Shown here piece after piece: positions 15,658 to 44,332 of a DNA stretch of 60,350 nt. The stretch's first letter is position 1. Each line of letters opens with the position of its first letter. The DNA comes from Acidobacteriota bacterium (GTDB taxonomy: Bacteria > Acidobacteriota > Thermoanaerobaculia > Thermoanaerobaculales > Sulfomarinibacteraceae): the NCBI GenBank assembly GCA_022340665.1, contig JAJDNM010000054.1, forward strand, positions 1 through 60,350. The letters are read 5' to 3'. The position numbers were made by a program, and so were the translations under genes. The notes below the pieces were generated by a model. That model searched no databases. It saw only the letters and a program-made list of their open reading frames with translations, and had not been told where the DNA came from.

Positions 15658-15698
15658 CCAACCTCCGGATGCAGATGATAGCAAGATTGCGACCGAAA

Positions 15699-15796
15699 GA
15701 ATTAGGAACTAGGAATTAGGAATTCGGAATTTCCACACGCACCCCCGAAAGAGAGGGTCCGGTGGAGGAGAATTCAAAATTGAGAATTCTCAAATG
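15699..15796. repeat. Intergenic heptad-repeat hairpin element (GAATTAG/GAATTCG units)
   Basis: The left arm (15699-15733) consists of five 7-base units: GAATTAG, GAACTAG, GAATTAG, GAATTCG, GAATTTC. The right arm (15767-15796) reads AGAATTC, AAAATTG, AGAATTC, TCAAATGG. A GC-rich core holding ACCCCCGAAAGAGAGGGT, itself a small hairpin, lies between them. The element starts 25 bases after the stop of the FeS/anchor gene and lies before the AI-2E gene, both on the minus strand. It is one member of a dispersed family in this window. Confidence 0.75.
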
Positions 15797-21915: not shown

Positions 21916-22398
21916 ATGACGGATTGGCAGCGAGGGCGTATGATTTCCTCGATCGGGACCATAGAAGTGTCGGTGGATGACGCGGGTGCCCTGACAAGCA
22001 TCTCGTTCGTGGATGACACCTCGACGGAATTGGGAAAACCCGACGACGCCTGTGTCCGTGTAATTCGCCAACTCCAAGAGTACCTCCGGGGCGAGAGGCG
22101 GCGTTTCCGGCTCCCCCTCGCGCCCGACGGAACCGAATTCGAGCACCGAGTGTGGGCCGAGGTGTGCCGGATCCCTTTCGGTTCCACCGACACCTACGGT
22201 GAGATTGCGCGCCGACTCGGAGTTCCCGATTCCGCTCGCGCGGTCGGGGCAGCCAACTCCCGAAATCCGATCGCAATCATGATTCCGTGCCATCGCGTAA
22301 TCGGTGCCGGAGGAGGCCTCACCGGATACGCTGGAGGCATCGATCGCAAGAAGTGGCTGCTCGACCACGAAGCGGGTCAACTGCGCCTCGGATTTTAA
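21916..22398 (+). CDS. ogt: Methylated-DNA--protein-cysteine methyltransferase
   Basis: This 160-residue suicide repair protein moves the alkyl group from O6-alkylguanine in DNA onto its own cysteine. The active-site motif is IPCHRVIG (Cys125). The DNA-binding helix-turn-helix block FEHRVWAEVCRIPFGSTDTYGEIA and the asparagine hinge GAANSRNP precede it, all at standard spacing. There is no N-terminal Ada metal-binding domain, so this is Ogt-type rather than Ada. An in-frame ATG eight codons downstream is an alternative start. The gene is divergent from the M28 peptidase gene and convergent with the WS/DGAT gene, with the AACGTT repeat element at its 3' end. Confidence 0.93.
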   Translation: MTDWQRGRMISSIGTIEVSVDDAGALTSISFVDDTSTELGKPDDACVRVIRQLQEYLRGERRRFRLPLAPDGTEFEHRVWAEVCRIPFGSTDTYGEIARRLGVPDSARAVGAANSRNPIAIMIPCHRVIGAGGGLTGYAGGIDRKKWLLDHEAGQLRLGF

Positions 22399-22507
22399 AA
22401 CGTTAAAACGTTAAACGTTTAAACGTTATAGCGTTGGGAGATTGAAGGGCAGGGCAGAGGCAAGCAGGGGGCGCGGGTGGAACGTTTCAACGCTCGAACG
22501 TTCAACC
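22397..22507. repeat. Intergenic octad-type hairpin element (AACGTT units) between convergent genes
   Basis: The left arm (22397-22435) repeats AAAACGTT-like units at mostly 8-base spacing. The right arm (22479-22507) reads GAACGTTT, CAACGCTC, GAACGTTC. Because AACGTT is its own reverse complement, each arm can fold on itself or pair with the other. The core is purine-rich, GGGCAGGGCAGAGGC. The right arm contains the stop codon of the WS/DGAT gene (22502-22504), and the left arm begins at the ogt stop. Confidence 0.7.
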
Positions 22508-25208: not shown

Positions 25209-25265
25209 GGCGCGGCCTCCTTCGGAGCACAATTCTATACCGGCGCCACAGGGCGGGTGCGCGGC

Positions 25266-25300
25266 AAATTCGAAATCCGAAATTCGAAATTCGAAATGCG
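25266..25300. repeat. Heptad tandem repeat (AAATTCG x5)
   Basis: Five perfectly phased 7-base units read AAATTCG, AAATCCG, AAATTCG, AAATTCG, AAATGCG, flanked by GC-rich sequence. They lie 12 bases past the stop of the amidotransferase gene. On the minus strand this is nearly the same sequence as the left arm at 44221-44257, a shared stretch of about 35 bases, so these two are dispersed copies of one element. The right arm is missing here. Confidence 0.75.
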
Positions 25301-25312
25301 TCGGGCGGCCGG

Positions 25313-28680: not shown

Positions 28681-29841
28681 ATGCTCTCGGGCACACTGAT
28701 CGCGATGACATCTCGGTCTGGCGACGATACGCGGTCCAAATTGCAAATTAGTCGCAATACCTCTCTGGCTTCGATGACCAGCCTCGAGCTCGGGGGTGCG
28801 GCCGACAGATTCGTGACAATCGGGAGTGTCGATGAAGTGCGAGAGGCGGTCTGCTTCGCTCGATCCGAGCGGCTTCCGATCTGCGTTCTGGGCTTTGGAT
28901 CCAACGTCGTGATCGCAGACGAGGGCGTGCTGGGTCTGATGATCCACCCGGCCATCAGCGGCTTTGAGTTGGAGAGAGAAAGACGTGGCAGGCGCGTTCA
29001 GCTGACAGCCTCCGCTGGAGAATCGTGGGACGACCTCGTGGCGATGACGGTGGACCAGAGCCTCGCTGGCGTCGAATGCCTGTCCGGCATTCCCGGGTCG
29101 GTGGGTGCGGCGCCGATCCAGAACATCGGCGCTTACGGACAGGAGGTCGCATCGGTGATCGATCGGGTCCGGGTCCTCGACCTTGCGAATCTCGAGGTGA
29201 GCTGGATCTGGCACGAGCGGTGCGGCTTCGGCTACAGGACCAGCATCTTCCGCAGAGATCCGGGACGGTACCTGGTTCTGGCGGTGAGTTTTAGCCTCGT
29301 TTCTGGTGGCCGGGCCGCGATCCGGTATGACGAGTTGAAACGTACGCTCGGAGTCGGTCGGACTTTGCCTCCCGTGGAAGATGTGCGCGAGGCGGTGCTC
29401 GAACTCCGGCGGTCAAAATCGATGTTGATTGAAGAGGGTGACCCGAACCGGCGCAGCGTGGGGTCCTTCTTCCTCAATCCTGTGGTCGATCCGAGGAGCC
29501 TTCGGTCGTTGGAGGTCTACGCACGCGAGACGGCGACTTCCGGCCAGACGGACCATGTCCCCGCCTTCCCAGTTGCGGACGGAAAATTCAAGGTGCCTGC
29601 TGCCTGGCTGATCGAACGGGCGGGTTTCAAGAAGGGGATGCGTAGGGGATCGGTGGGCATTTCGACCGCCCATTCGCTGGCCCTGGTGCATCACGGTGGC
29701 GGTACGACTGCCGAGTTGATCGAGCTGGCGCGGGAGATCCGCGACGGGGTTCGGAGGGAGACCGGAATCGAGCTCGAGCCTGAGCCGACGTTTTTCGGCT
29801 TCCCGACCGCAAATCCACTCGCGGATACAGTTGAGAGTTAA
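28681..29841 (+). CDS. murB: UDP-N-acetylenolpyruvoylglucosamine reductase
   Basis: MurB uses FAD and NADPH to reduce UDP-GlcNAc-enolpyruvate to UDP-MurNAc in peptidoglycan synthesis. Over 386 residues the sequence shows NTSLASMTSLELGGAADRF, the FAD pyrophosphate loop VLGFGSNVV, GIPGSVGAAPIQNIGAYGQE, GYRTSIFR, the active-site serine block SVGSFFLNP, PAAWLIERAGFKKG and the final glutamate block ELEPEPTFFG. Type I features (QNIGAYG, YRxSxF) are present. Starts at 28681 or 28705 are both possible. No other mur genes are nearby, which is unusual but seen in many phyla. The last codons and stop lie inside a heptad-repeat element. Confidence 0.93.
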   Translation: MLSGTLIAMTSRSGDDTRSKLQISRNTSLASMTSLELGGAADRFVTIGSVDEVREAVCFARSERLPICVLGFGSNVVIADEGVLGLMIHPAISGFELERERRGRRVQLTASAGESWDDLVAMTVDQSLAGVECLSGIPGSVGAAPIQNIGAYGQEVASVIDRVRVLDLANLEVSWIWHERCGFGYRTSIFRRDPGRYLVLAVSFSLVSGGRAAIRYDELKRTLGVGRTLPPVEDVREAVLELRRSKSMLIEEGDPNRRSVGSFFLNPVVDPRSLRSLEVYARETATSGQTDHVPAFPVADGKFKVPAAWLIERAGFKKGMRRGSVGISTAHSLALVHHGGGTTAELIELAREIRDGVRRETGIELEPEPTFFGFPTANPLADTVES

Positions 29842-29944
29842 GAGTTAAGAGTTAAGAGTTGAAAGTTGCGCTCGTCCTCCCGTTGCCAGGTGCGCGTGGG
29901 TGGGAACTCTAAACTCTCAACTCTGAATTCTGCACTCTGCAACC
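29829..29944. repeat. Intergenic heptad-repeat hairpin element (AGTTAAG / AACTCTn arms) supplying the murB stop codon
   Basis: The left arm (29829-29870) has six 7-base units: AGTTGAG, AGTTAAG, AGTTAAG, AGTTAAG, AGTTGAA, AGTTGCG. The right arm (29905-29944) has AACTCTA, AACTCTC, AACTCTG, AATTCTG, CACTCTG. Read on the other strand the right arm becomes AGAGTT-type units, so the arms pair with each other across a roughly 34-base GC-rich core. The first units encode the last residues of MurB, and its TAA stop lies at 29839-29841. The element fills the gap between convergent murB and the ABC permease gene. Confidence 0.82.
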
Positions 29945-29950
29945 GTAACG

Positions 29951-30769
29951 CTAATCAGCCGAGTACGTCACCTCGAGACGCCGCGCGACTCGACCGGCGA
30001 GATACACCAGCACTGCCGAGCTGACCAACAAGGCCAGCAACGCGATCCATCGGGGGACGGGATCCGCCAGCAGGGCGAATGCGCCGAGGCCAACGGGCAC
30101 CGGTGCGAAGGACACCAGATAGTGAATGAAGCTCAGGAACTTGAGGACGTTCGGCAAAAAGGGTGTCAGCGTTTCCCACCCGAGGAAGAGAATGGCGGGC
30201 ACCATCGGGTTTTTGAAGTACAGCCCGGCAAGCATGAAGAGGGCGCCATAAGCGATGCACGCCAGAACGACGATCAGCTCGTAGCTCGCGAGTTGAGAGA
30301 TGCCGGCGCCGGAGAGGAGCAGGCGGATACCCGCCGAGCCGTGCGGCAGATAGACCAAGAGATAGGTCAGGGCAGTCGTCGGAATCAGGACCAGAGAGGC
30401 CGCCAGGACGCCACCGAGGTACTTTCCCCATACGAGCCGATTGCGGGGCACCGGTGCGAGCAGGGTGTAGTGGAGTGATTTCTCGAGCATCTCTCCGCGA
30501 AAGAGGCGGACGAAGATCAGGGCGTTGGCGAAGAAGACGACGAAACGGAGGAGAAAGAAGTGAAAGACTTCGGCAAACTCGTTGGTCGCGTGAATCGCGT
30601 CGGCGCGCATCGAGGGTGGCATGAACAGCGCCCGCAGCACCATCAGGGCAAACGGCATCCCAACCAGCACGTAGACTGGAAGCGAACGGCGGCTGACGAG
30701 GCTACGCCGGATTTCGCTCTTGGCGAGGGTCGAGACCTGCAGTCGGCGAACGGTGGTCGCGTCGGTCAT
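29951..30769 (-). CDS. ABC-2 type permease (second pair of the sigma-linked operon)
   Basis: This 272-residue membrane protein has six predicted transmembrane segments (PVYVLVGMPFALMVLRALF, FFLLRFVVFFANALIFVR, LAASLVLIPTTALTYLLVY and others). It starts 4 bases inside the end of the ATPase gene at 30766-31713 (ATGA overlap), so the two are translated together. It is the last gene of the operon. The block RGEMLEKSLHYTLLAPVPRNRLVWGKY after the second helix is typical of ABC-2 permeases whose partner ATPase exports lipids, peptides or drugs. The substrate is not apparent. Confidence 0.8.
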   Translation of the reverse strand: MTDATTVRRLQVSTLAKSEIRRSLVSRRSLPVYVLVGMPFALMVLRALFMPPSMRADAIHATNEFAEVFHFFLLRFVVFFANALIFVRLFRGEMLEKSLHYTLLAPVPRNRLVWGKYLGGVLAASLVLIPTTALTYLLVYLPHGSAGIRLLLSGAGISQLASYELIVVLACIAYGALFMLAGLYFKNPMVPAILFLGWETLTPFLPNVLKFLSFIHYLVSFAPVPVGLGAFALLADPVPRWIALLALLVSSAVLVYLAGRVARRLEVTYSAD

Positions 30770-31713
30770 GCGCTGCCTCCGCCCGGAGCTTCACCAATCA
30801 GGTAGTCGTAGACCGCGTGCACGCTCTCGTCCGCCGGAGCGATGGTCTCGACCACCACCTCGTCGTCGATGACGATGCGGTTGAACTCCGTGAAGAAGGC
30901 CGATGCGTCTTTGGTGCGCACGAGCAGGGCGTCGTCCTCGACGATGCGCACCTCGACGACGTGTTCGAGCTCGACGACTCGTGATGCCACCAGATGCGGC
31001 TTGTCGCTGCGGATCAGGAGCTGGATGGGATGGGCGGTGATCTCGCCGCGGACCTCGCGGATCCCGCCCTCGGCGACGATCGTTCCCCCGTGGATCATGA
31101 TGACACCGTCGGAAATCACGTCGACCTCGTGCAGGATGTGGCTGGACACGATGACGTGCCGTCCTTCCGCGGCGAACTGTGTGAAGAGATCGATCATCTC
31201 GGCGCGACCCATCGGGTCAAGCCCGTTCAGTGGTTCATCGAGGACCAGGACGCGGGGATCGTGGCAGTGCGCGTGGGCGAGCTTGATGCGCTGCCGCATA
31301 CCCTTCGAATAACCCGCTATCTTCCGGTTTGCGGCTTCCGTCAGCCCGACACGGGTCAACGCCTTCCAGGCCTTTTCGTCGATCTCCTCTGAGGAAAGGC
31401 CATGCAGGGCAAGGGCGTGGCGAAGAAACCCGAGGCCGGTCGATCCGTTCGGAAAATTGTCGTACTGGGTGCAGTAGCCGACCAGGCGGAAGAGGTCCTC
31501 GGGCCGGTCCGGTGGCAGACCGAGGACCGAGATGTCGCCACGGGTCGGGCGCAAGAGCCCCGTCATCAGGTGCATGAGCGTGCTCTTACCGGAGCCATTG
31601 GGTCCGACCAGCCCGGTCAGCCCCGGCGCGATCTCGAGGTTCACCCTGTTCACGCCGAGGACCTCGCCATAGAACTTCGAGACCTCGCGGAAGACGATGT
31701 GCTCCGAGGTCAT
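30766..31713 (-). CDS. ABC transporter ATP-binding protein (second pair)
   Basis: This 315-residue protein has one complete ABC domain: Walker A GPNGSGKST, Q-loop YCTQYDN, a signature-like YSKGMRQRIKL, Walker B VLVLDEPLNGLDP and the switch histidine ISSHI-like VSSHILHE. An extra C-terminal region (about 215-315) resembles the accessory domain of ABC-2 exporter ATPases. It overlaps the permease genes on both sides by 4 bases. It should energise export through the permease at 29951-30769, or form a heteromeric exporter with the other pair. The signature has KG where LSGGQ has GG, which is common in CcmA-like ATPases. Confidence 0.88.
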   Translation of the reverse strand: MTSEHIVFREVSKFYGEVLGVNRVNLEIAPGLTGLVGPNGSGKSTLMHLMTGLLRPTRGDISVLGLPPDRPEDLFRLVGYCTQYDNFPNGSTGLGFLRHALALHGLSSEEIDEKAWKALTRVGLTEAANRKIAGYSKGMRQRIKLAHAHCHDPRVLVLDEPLNGLDPMGRAEMIDLFTQFAAEGRHVIVSSHILHEVDVISDGVIMIHGGTIVAEGGIREVRGEITAHPIQLLIRSDKPHLVASRVVELEHVVEVRIVEDDALLVRTKDASAFFTEFNRIVIDDEVVVETIAPADESVHAVYDYLIGEAPGGGSA

Positions 31714-37792: not shown

Positions 37793-37890
37793 AAAGTTTA
37801 GAGTTGAGAGCTTTGAGTTTCGAGTGTGGAAGGTATCCCTAGGCGAGTGGACTGGGACTCTCAACTCTTCAATCTCGACTCTCAACTTTG
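37793..37890. repeat. Intergenic heptad-repeat hairpin element (GAGTTGA / CTCAACT arms)
   Basis: The left arm (37793-37828) phases at 7 bases: AAAGTTT, AGAGTTG, AGAGCTT, TGAGTTT, CGAGTGT. The right arm (37856-37890) reads GACTCTC, AACTCTT, CAATCTC, GACTCTC, AACTTTG. Its reverse complement is again GAGTTGAGAGT-like, so the arms are complementary across a 27-base core. It sits between convergent phhA (stop 37789) and the Rieske gene (stop 37903). It resembles the murB element in unit sequence but is not identical to it. Confidence 0.8.
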
Positions 37891-44189: not shown

Positions 44190-44220
44190 CACCTTTTGAT
44201 CATAGCCTGTGATCAAATCC

Positions 44221-44332
44221 GCATTTCGAATTTCGGATTTCGAAATTCGAATTTGCCGCCCACCCTCCCTGAGAACTGGGGGACGGAGGGGAATTGAGAA
44301 CTGAGAATTCAAAATTCAAATTTCAACATTCG
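44221..44332. repeat. Intergenic heptad-repeat hairpin element (GAATTTC / GAAATTC arms)
   Basis: The left arm (44221-44257) phases at 7: GCATTTC, GAATTTC, GGATTTC, GAAATTC, GAATTTG. The right arm (44291-44332) reads GAATTGA, GAACTGA, GAATTCA, AAATTCA, AATTTCA, ACATTCG. The core contains CCCACCCTCCCTGAG and GGGGGACGGAGGGG, which form an inner stem. Here the element lies between a minus-strand gene start and a plus-strand gene start, so it is in a divergent promoter region. Its left arm matches the element at 25266-25300 on the opposite strand. Confidence 0.8.

Follow-up and report, generated by a model that had tools for sequence, protein, structure and literature searches.

Paired heptad repeats of changing unit behind genes of an Acidobacteriota bacterium, one of which supplies the stop codon of murB

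The 3' end of murB in the 60,350-nt stretch of Acidobacteriota DNA analysed here (the window) runs into a hairpin made of two inverted arrays of 7-nt units. We found that this element belongs to a large, mostly intergenic population of such arrays, and that the units are clearly different at six of the seven sites at which the genome carrying the window (G000) and a congener (G004) both have an array. A preliminary description of this DNA had proposed that the element offers a natural test of whether such repeats move or grow, and the comparison of the two congeners provides that test. We give about an even chance to the reading that the hairpin arose by slippage and arm-to-arm strand switching and was placed by purging, with no dedicated function at murB needed.

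The gene encoding UDP-N-acetylmuramate dehydrogenase (murB) occupies 28681–29841 of the forward strand according to the list of open reading frames, a profile search and our own gene caller, the last of which preferred a start at 28774. Both NF010478 and TIGR00179 were matched above their cut-offs, the former with 372.9 bits (cut-off 231) over residues 16–373 of 386. Since this match stops at residue 373, leaving the last 13 residues outside, the three residues made by the repeat lie beyond it. The protein ends in ..NPLADTVES*, and its final codons and stop (GTT GAG AGT TAA, V-E-S-stop) do lie within the first units of a 7-mer array, as had been described.

This left arm, with the unit AGAGTTN, extends over 29829–29868 of the forward strand; TRF places the tandem 7-mer at 29829–29867 and scores it 57 for period 7 and 64 for period 14. 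The old end of murB is probably contained in the initial 7 bases of the arm, and the current stop TAA (29839–29841) lies inside the array. The three TAA triplets, which had been assigned to one frame, start at 29839, 29846 and 29853 (1, 2 and 0 modulo 3) and thus fall in three different frames, the next in-frame stop past the TAA being the TGA at 29860. The arm is followed by a GC-rich spacer of 36 nt (29869–29904) with GGGTGGG at its 3' end (29898–29904), motifs of the GGG.GGG type being frequent in spacers of this hairpin family. A second array, reading AACTCTN on the forward strand, occupies 29905–29941. It repeats the left arm in reverse complement, which makes the whole element a hairpin. 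The earlier view of one heptad element at 29829–29944 was correct as to the tandem 7-mer, and its right part is an inverted second array. The predicted RNA fold of 29825–29950 has a free energy of -44.1 kcal/mol (z = -3.9), and that of the gap alone, from the stop onward, a z of -2.25. Six of seven bases are paired along much of the stem, with the N base unpaired in four of the five units. With E values up to 1 allowed, an Rfam search of 29700–30050 gave one match only (E 0.33), which was far under the gathering score and outside the hairpin. The convergent neighbour at 29951–30769 on the reverse strand is an open reading frame, itself without an NCBIfam match; it is a probable ABC transporter permease gene, a label taken from the adjacent ABC ATPase gene (30766–31713), which matched many ABC models.

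MurB was searched in 59 genomes, 50 of which matched, and the 3' end was inspected in 24 murB stretches including that of the window, with short-form MurB relatives left out. Two of the four other genomes of the genus, G003 and G004, gave a match, with 53 to 58% identity (58% for G004). The convergent neighbour is orthologous in both; in G006, G007, G014 and G017 it was identified from a sequence motif at its C-terminus. In G004, murB terminates in GACAGTTGA with TGA as the stop, and the protein ends in ..NPLSDS*. This end has ACAGTTGA in common with G000, aligned with a 2-nt gap, and the G004 stop aligns with a TGA at 29832–29834 of G000 that is 2 nt off frame there and may be a relic stop. 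Among random 24-mers, only 0.3% have any 8-mer in common with the murB end of G000. The AGTTGAG that had been read as the first repeat unit is indeed inside the array; it also holds ACAGTTGA, which aligns with the G004 gene end, and need not be part of the repeat. Likewise, of the proposal that the element had expanded into the gene end or replaced it, the part that stands is that the array supplies the current stop; wholesale replacement fits the retained ACAGTTGA less well than a small indel and a two-codon read-through to the TAA of the array. The former gene end is thus probably still in place, a small frameshift having moved termination downstream to a stop provided by the array. The order, indel first and array later, is a guess from one alignment pair, as MurB was matched in only two congeners (53 to 58% identity), and the pattern is absent in G003. 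Relatives with the same C-terminal codons and no repeats downstream, which had been named as evidence against the proposal, are in part represented by G004, which has the nucleotides of the first unit and no AGAGTT array.

Among the relatives compared, only G000 has an AGAGTT array in the murB gap; in G003 and G004, the two congeners in which murB was matched, the gap contains tandem hairpins of other units. In G004, about 30 nt after the stop, there is a hairpin of 8-nt units (GTTAGGAA, z -3.1). In G003, the stop TAA adjoins AACGTT units forming a hairpin (z -2.6), and the protein ends in ..PFES*, the last two residues being those of G000 in other codons. The G014 gap has an uninterrupted stem of 24 pairs, one of them G-U, without tandem units (z -5.1); this stem (L016) is flanked by an A6 run. 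No significant hairpin was found in the murB gaps of G006, G007 and G017 (z 0.5, -0.5 and 1.5, respectively), that of G007 containing a period-6-like run. Five family members (G008, G009, G011, G013 and G016) gave only weak, split MurB matches at 29–41% identity; some of the family thus seems to have a different MurB type in place of the long one encoded in the window.

The murB arrays are not isolated. We sampled 860 kb of G000 (40 stretches and the window), with genes called by our own script alone; all 40 stretches are on contigs matched in an earlier search, and 12 of them contain a match. The sample holds 112 arrays at period 7, 108 of them intergenic (108 or 110 under slightly different definitions of intergenic), as compared with seven each at periods 6 and 8, two at 12, one at 15 and none at 4, 5, 9, 10, 11 or 13; the 41 at period 14 represent twice 7. 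The 28 match-free stretches contain 66 arrays at period 7, three at 6 and four at 8, and the 12 others contain 40 arrays. The count of 112 is somewhat inflated by the sampling, the density being about 118 per Mb without the match-containing stretches, and scaling from the sample suggests some 450 to 500 heptad arrays in the whole genome. By a looser test, which asked for at least 16 of 21 self-matches at period 6, 7 or 8 in gaps no shorter than 40 nt, 127 of 400 gaps and none of 400 letter-shuffled gaps were positive, so the arrays are not a product of chance. Their units vary by place (GAATT.., GAGTT.., GGATG.., AACGTT..), and GRRT is contained in 124 of 137 intergenic arrays; the commonest units (GAATT.., GAGTT.. 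and GGATG..) lack G3 runs, and a rare GGGGCTT array was seen in L062. In 308 kb of G004 we found 36 arrays at period 7, 35 of them intergenic, with seven at period 6 and six at period 8, and the same unit families at other sites. Within the window, the same population includes GAATTAG (15694–15737) and AAATTCG (25261–25312) arrays, and arm pairs of AGTTTAG and ACTCTCA in a convergent gap (37795–37887) and of AATTTCG and AATTCAA with CCCACCC in the spacer (44215–44332). AACGTT units with mixed 7/8 spacing, the unit also found at G003 murB, occur in the convergent gap at 22391–22439.

The inverted arrangement at murB is also common to the population. Of 55 neighbouring array pairs, 38 were closer to each other as inverted and eight as direct copies, with nine ties, and the spacer between them had a median of 40 nt. 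The arms of one pair differed at 1.5 of 7 positions, as compared with 2.8 when arms were swapped between pairs. This comparison replaced a blunter one of each array with the flanks of 25 other arrays, in which 13 of 74 arrays beat all 25 (2.8 expected); that test is blunt because unit families recur. Folding of all 55 pairs gave a median z of -3.55, with 43 below -2. The spacers carry motifs of the CCC.CCC type in the 5' half in 25 pairs (26 of 363 random gap pieces), of the GGG.GGG type in the 3' half in 29 (37 of 363) and of both types in 14 (6 of 363).

We then compared the positions of the elements with random placement. For half of the elements facing a 3' end (42 of 84), the distance to the stop is 10 nt or less, with 26.9 expected; nine of 76 are as close to a start, with 19.9 expected. 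Stops are overlapped by 22 elements (18.3 expected) and starts by four (12.9 expected). These overlap and distance counts make the avoidance of starts the clearer effect. Among the 110 intergenic arrays, 17 overlap a stop codon, murB included, and two a start codon; overlap with stops is little more than random placement in gaps would give and is not special to murB. Convergent gaps were occupied in 17 of 59 cases and divergent gaps in 15 of 85, a difference that is not significant (p 0.15).

The seven sites occupied in both G000 and G004 show what has changed between these species. At murB, AGAGTTN in G000 corresponds to the 8-nt unit in G004, and at window position 25261 AAATTCG corresponds to AACGTTC. 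The two units are GGATGTT and GAACGTT at L048 3203, and GAATTCG and GGATACC at L063/L233. The remaining three sites were picked by occupancy in G004 alone. Site 1 is not a clear difference, as the AACGTT of G000 scores 15 (threshold 16) and G004, with GAATTAG first, also has AACGTT downstream in the gap; G003 has ATTTCGA there. Site 2 has a period-6 array in G000 and AGAGTT in G004, with none in G003, the G004 hairpin lying, by eye, behind an apparent intrinsic terminator. The units of site 3 are GGATNCT and GGAATTA. The change of unit is therefore clear. The retention of sites is suggestive only: among 30 orthologous gaps, two were occupied in both genomes, four in G004 only, one in G000 only and 23 in neither (Fisher p 0.09), a table in which gap 25316 is mis-scored as 'G004 only', the array in G000 being cut by a start that the gene caller put within it. 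The table lacks the L233/L063 gap, one of whose genes falls on two separate stretches, and the six G003 pairs (L067). At L216 1601, AACGTT units are present in G004, below the threshold of that table, and absent from G000. The gaps at L063 19213 and L233 4321 contain a conserved block beside the heptad array in both species, which looks to us like a cobalamin riboswitch. By eye, larger non-tandem inverted repeats, possibly a small mobile palindrome, were found in G004 at L066 6776–6920 and L231 6064–6585, and are absent from the G000 counterparts.

Period, inversion, arm match, place and unit change form the basis of the reading that we rate at about even. Replication slippage would lengthen and shorten the arrays by 7-nt units. 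Strand switching from one inverted arm to its partner, the process known as quasipalindrome correction, would copy unit text from arm to arm, by which the arms would stay alike as their wording drifts. Selection would purge arrays from coding sequence and from the vicinity of starts, leaving them to accumulate just behind stops. At murB, a 2-nt indel may have put the old TGA out of frame, judging from the one alignment, and the TAA of the array, two codons on, may thereby have become the stop. Slippage, arm copying and the frameshift at murB are what we infer from these patterns, and the same would hold for a role at RNA ends. At the level of single units the two arms are not mirror images, and the N base unpaired in four of five murB units implies that arm copying, if real, is old or partial. 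The small number of unit families, with GRRT in nearly all, is not explained by slippage alone. We regard as possible, with considerable doubt, a more specific version, in which hairpins are kept at gene ends over genus-level time and a self-templating cycle, slippage followed by copying between arms, rewrites the unit as a whole and in the two arms jointly.

Less likely than the main reading is selection on the hairpin as an RNA structure at the 3' ends of mRNAs, where it would stop transcription or block 3' exonucleases, in both directions in a convergent gap. The strong folding, the proximity to stops and avoidance of starts, the hairpins in the same convergent gap of G003, G004 and G014, and the higher occupancy of convergent gaps are all consistent with it. 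However, neither T5 nor A5 was found just outside any of the 55 pairs, and an intrinsic terminator was rejected on this account; a terminator scan, which detects loops of 3–8 only, reported none at 29829–29941. Ordinary GC hairpins with T runs exist elsewhere in the organism (L270, by eye), and in one case a G004 heptad hairpin lies behind such a site. The convergent excess is not significant, 10 of the 55 pairs are in divergent gaps, and the murB gaps of G006, G007 and G017 lack a significant hairpin.

It is unlikely that a mobile hairpin of the REP, REPIN or MITE type was inserted at the murB end. REP and REPIN sequences are dispersed extragenic palindromes, and the many dispersed copies, the recurrence of unit families elsewhere in G004 and five Y1 transposase matches in G000 would suit such an origin. 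However, apart from GGGTGGG-like motifs the spacers of the six G000 AGAGTT hairpins have little in common by eye, and units differ between copies. An array is near one of the five Y1 transposase genes, which is not above the background in gaps, and the REP/RAYT link was dropped. Unlike REP/REPIN, the present elements comprise several unit families with no fixed palindrome and no such transposase link.

Still a little less probable, in our judgement, is that the arrays are single-step slippage debris, free to arise anywhere outside genes, with the inverted pairing incidental. Work on other heptads cites heptanucleotide repeats as common in bacteria (PMC4692102; PMC4679880), and purging would explain the avoidance of genes and starts; yet the excess of inverted over direct pairs, the narrow spacer range and the better match of own arms oppose it. 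That the array is a fail-safe stop, 7 not being a multiple of 3 so that stops reach all frames, is very improbable and was discarded: stops in three frames within 45 nt occur at 25 of 54 array-bearing 3' ends as compared with 27 of 304 array-free ends, but shuffling the columns of the units still yields 28.1 of 54, so that composition together with period is enough to account for the stops, and a pure GGATGCT array has none.

Tandem heptamers are known as the short tandemly repeated repetitive sequences of cyanobacteria. Three Calothrix heptanucleotides are cited in PMC4692102. In that paper, Rehm et al. (2015) describe GGGAATC heptads of Xanthomonas that are dispersed and mostly intergenic, lie nearer the upstream gene (on average 28 nt versus 160 nt), form 70 and 75 inverted pairs in two species and are in the same gene context between species in 83% of cases (PMC4692102). 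The present arrays resemble them in their exact 7-nt units, intergenic location, proximity to the preceding stop and frequent inverted pairs. The Xanthomonas unit is a G-rich quadruplex type of the same kind in both species, which the commonest G000 units are not, whereas the arrays described here use several mostly AT-rich units per genome, have arms matched in text around a GC-rich spacer, and differ in unit from congener to congener at a given site. The TAACTGA heptads of Beggiatoaceae (MacGregor 2015; PMC4679880), 13 sets of which overlap the upstream stop codon, are also 7-nt repeats with stops in all three frames; they differ in having one unit in direct orientation, mostly upstream of starts, with one inverted case. 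Mrazek and colleagues, as cited in both papers, found 7 to be the commonest long unit size in prokaryotes and proposed slippage, with arm pairing and unit turnover not mentioned in that citation (PMC4679880). Among the titles listed for our queries of an open library, none concerned heptad hairpins with mixed units that turn over, and mixed units that change at kept sites look new beside the Xanthomonas and Beggiatoaceae heptads.

As roughly one in three of the sampled gaps that are 40 nt or longer carries an array, whatever produces these arrays is a main force on the noncoding DNA of this organism. The overlapped stop codons indicate that gene ends are shaped as well, and the C-terminal residues and gap sequences of such genomes call for caution, being partly made of repeats. 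Comparison between congeners separates place, structure and sequence, which are usually coupled. If the arms are truly rewritten together, they would provide a natural readout of template switching in bacteria. If that reading is true, methods based on conservation would miss such hairpins, as only place, period and self-complementarity persist.

The AGAGTT unit itself is not special in the phylum of the window, since its hairpin was present in three of 396 genomes (6, 2 and 17 copies) and a backward-read control in two (one copy each); its candidacy as a special unit was given up. A universal GRRT rule was also rejected, as about 40 of 129 arrays outside the AGAGTT family in the 119 analysed loci of named genomes (see below) conform and shuffled units give 94 of 270 overall. 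A scan of named genomes, run without a control, found the AGAGTT hairpin in at least 119 stretches, with Prevotella, Planctomycetota, Acidobacteria, Anaerolineae, Nitrospirae, Clostridiales, Hymenobacter and others among the matches listed. These stretches contain 270 arrays at period 7, about half of them of the searched unit, and two each at periods 6 and 8. AGAGTT hairpins were also seen on two IMG/VR viral contigs (L040 and L041), one of which carries two copies.
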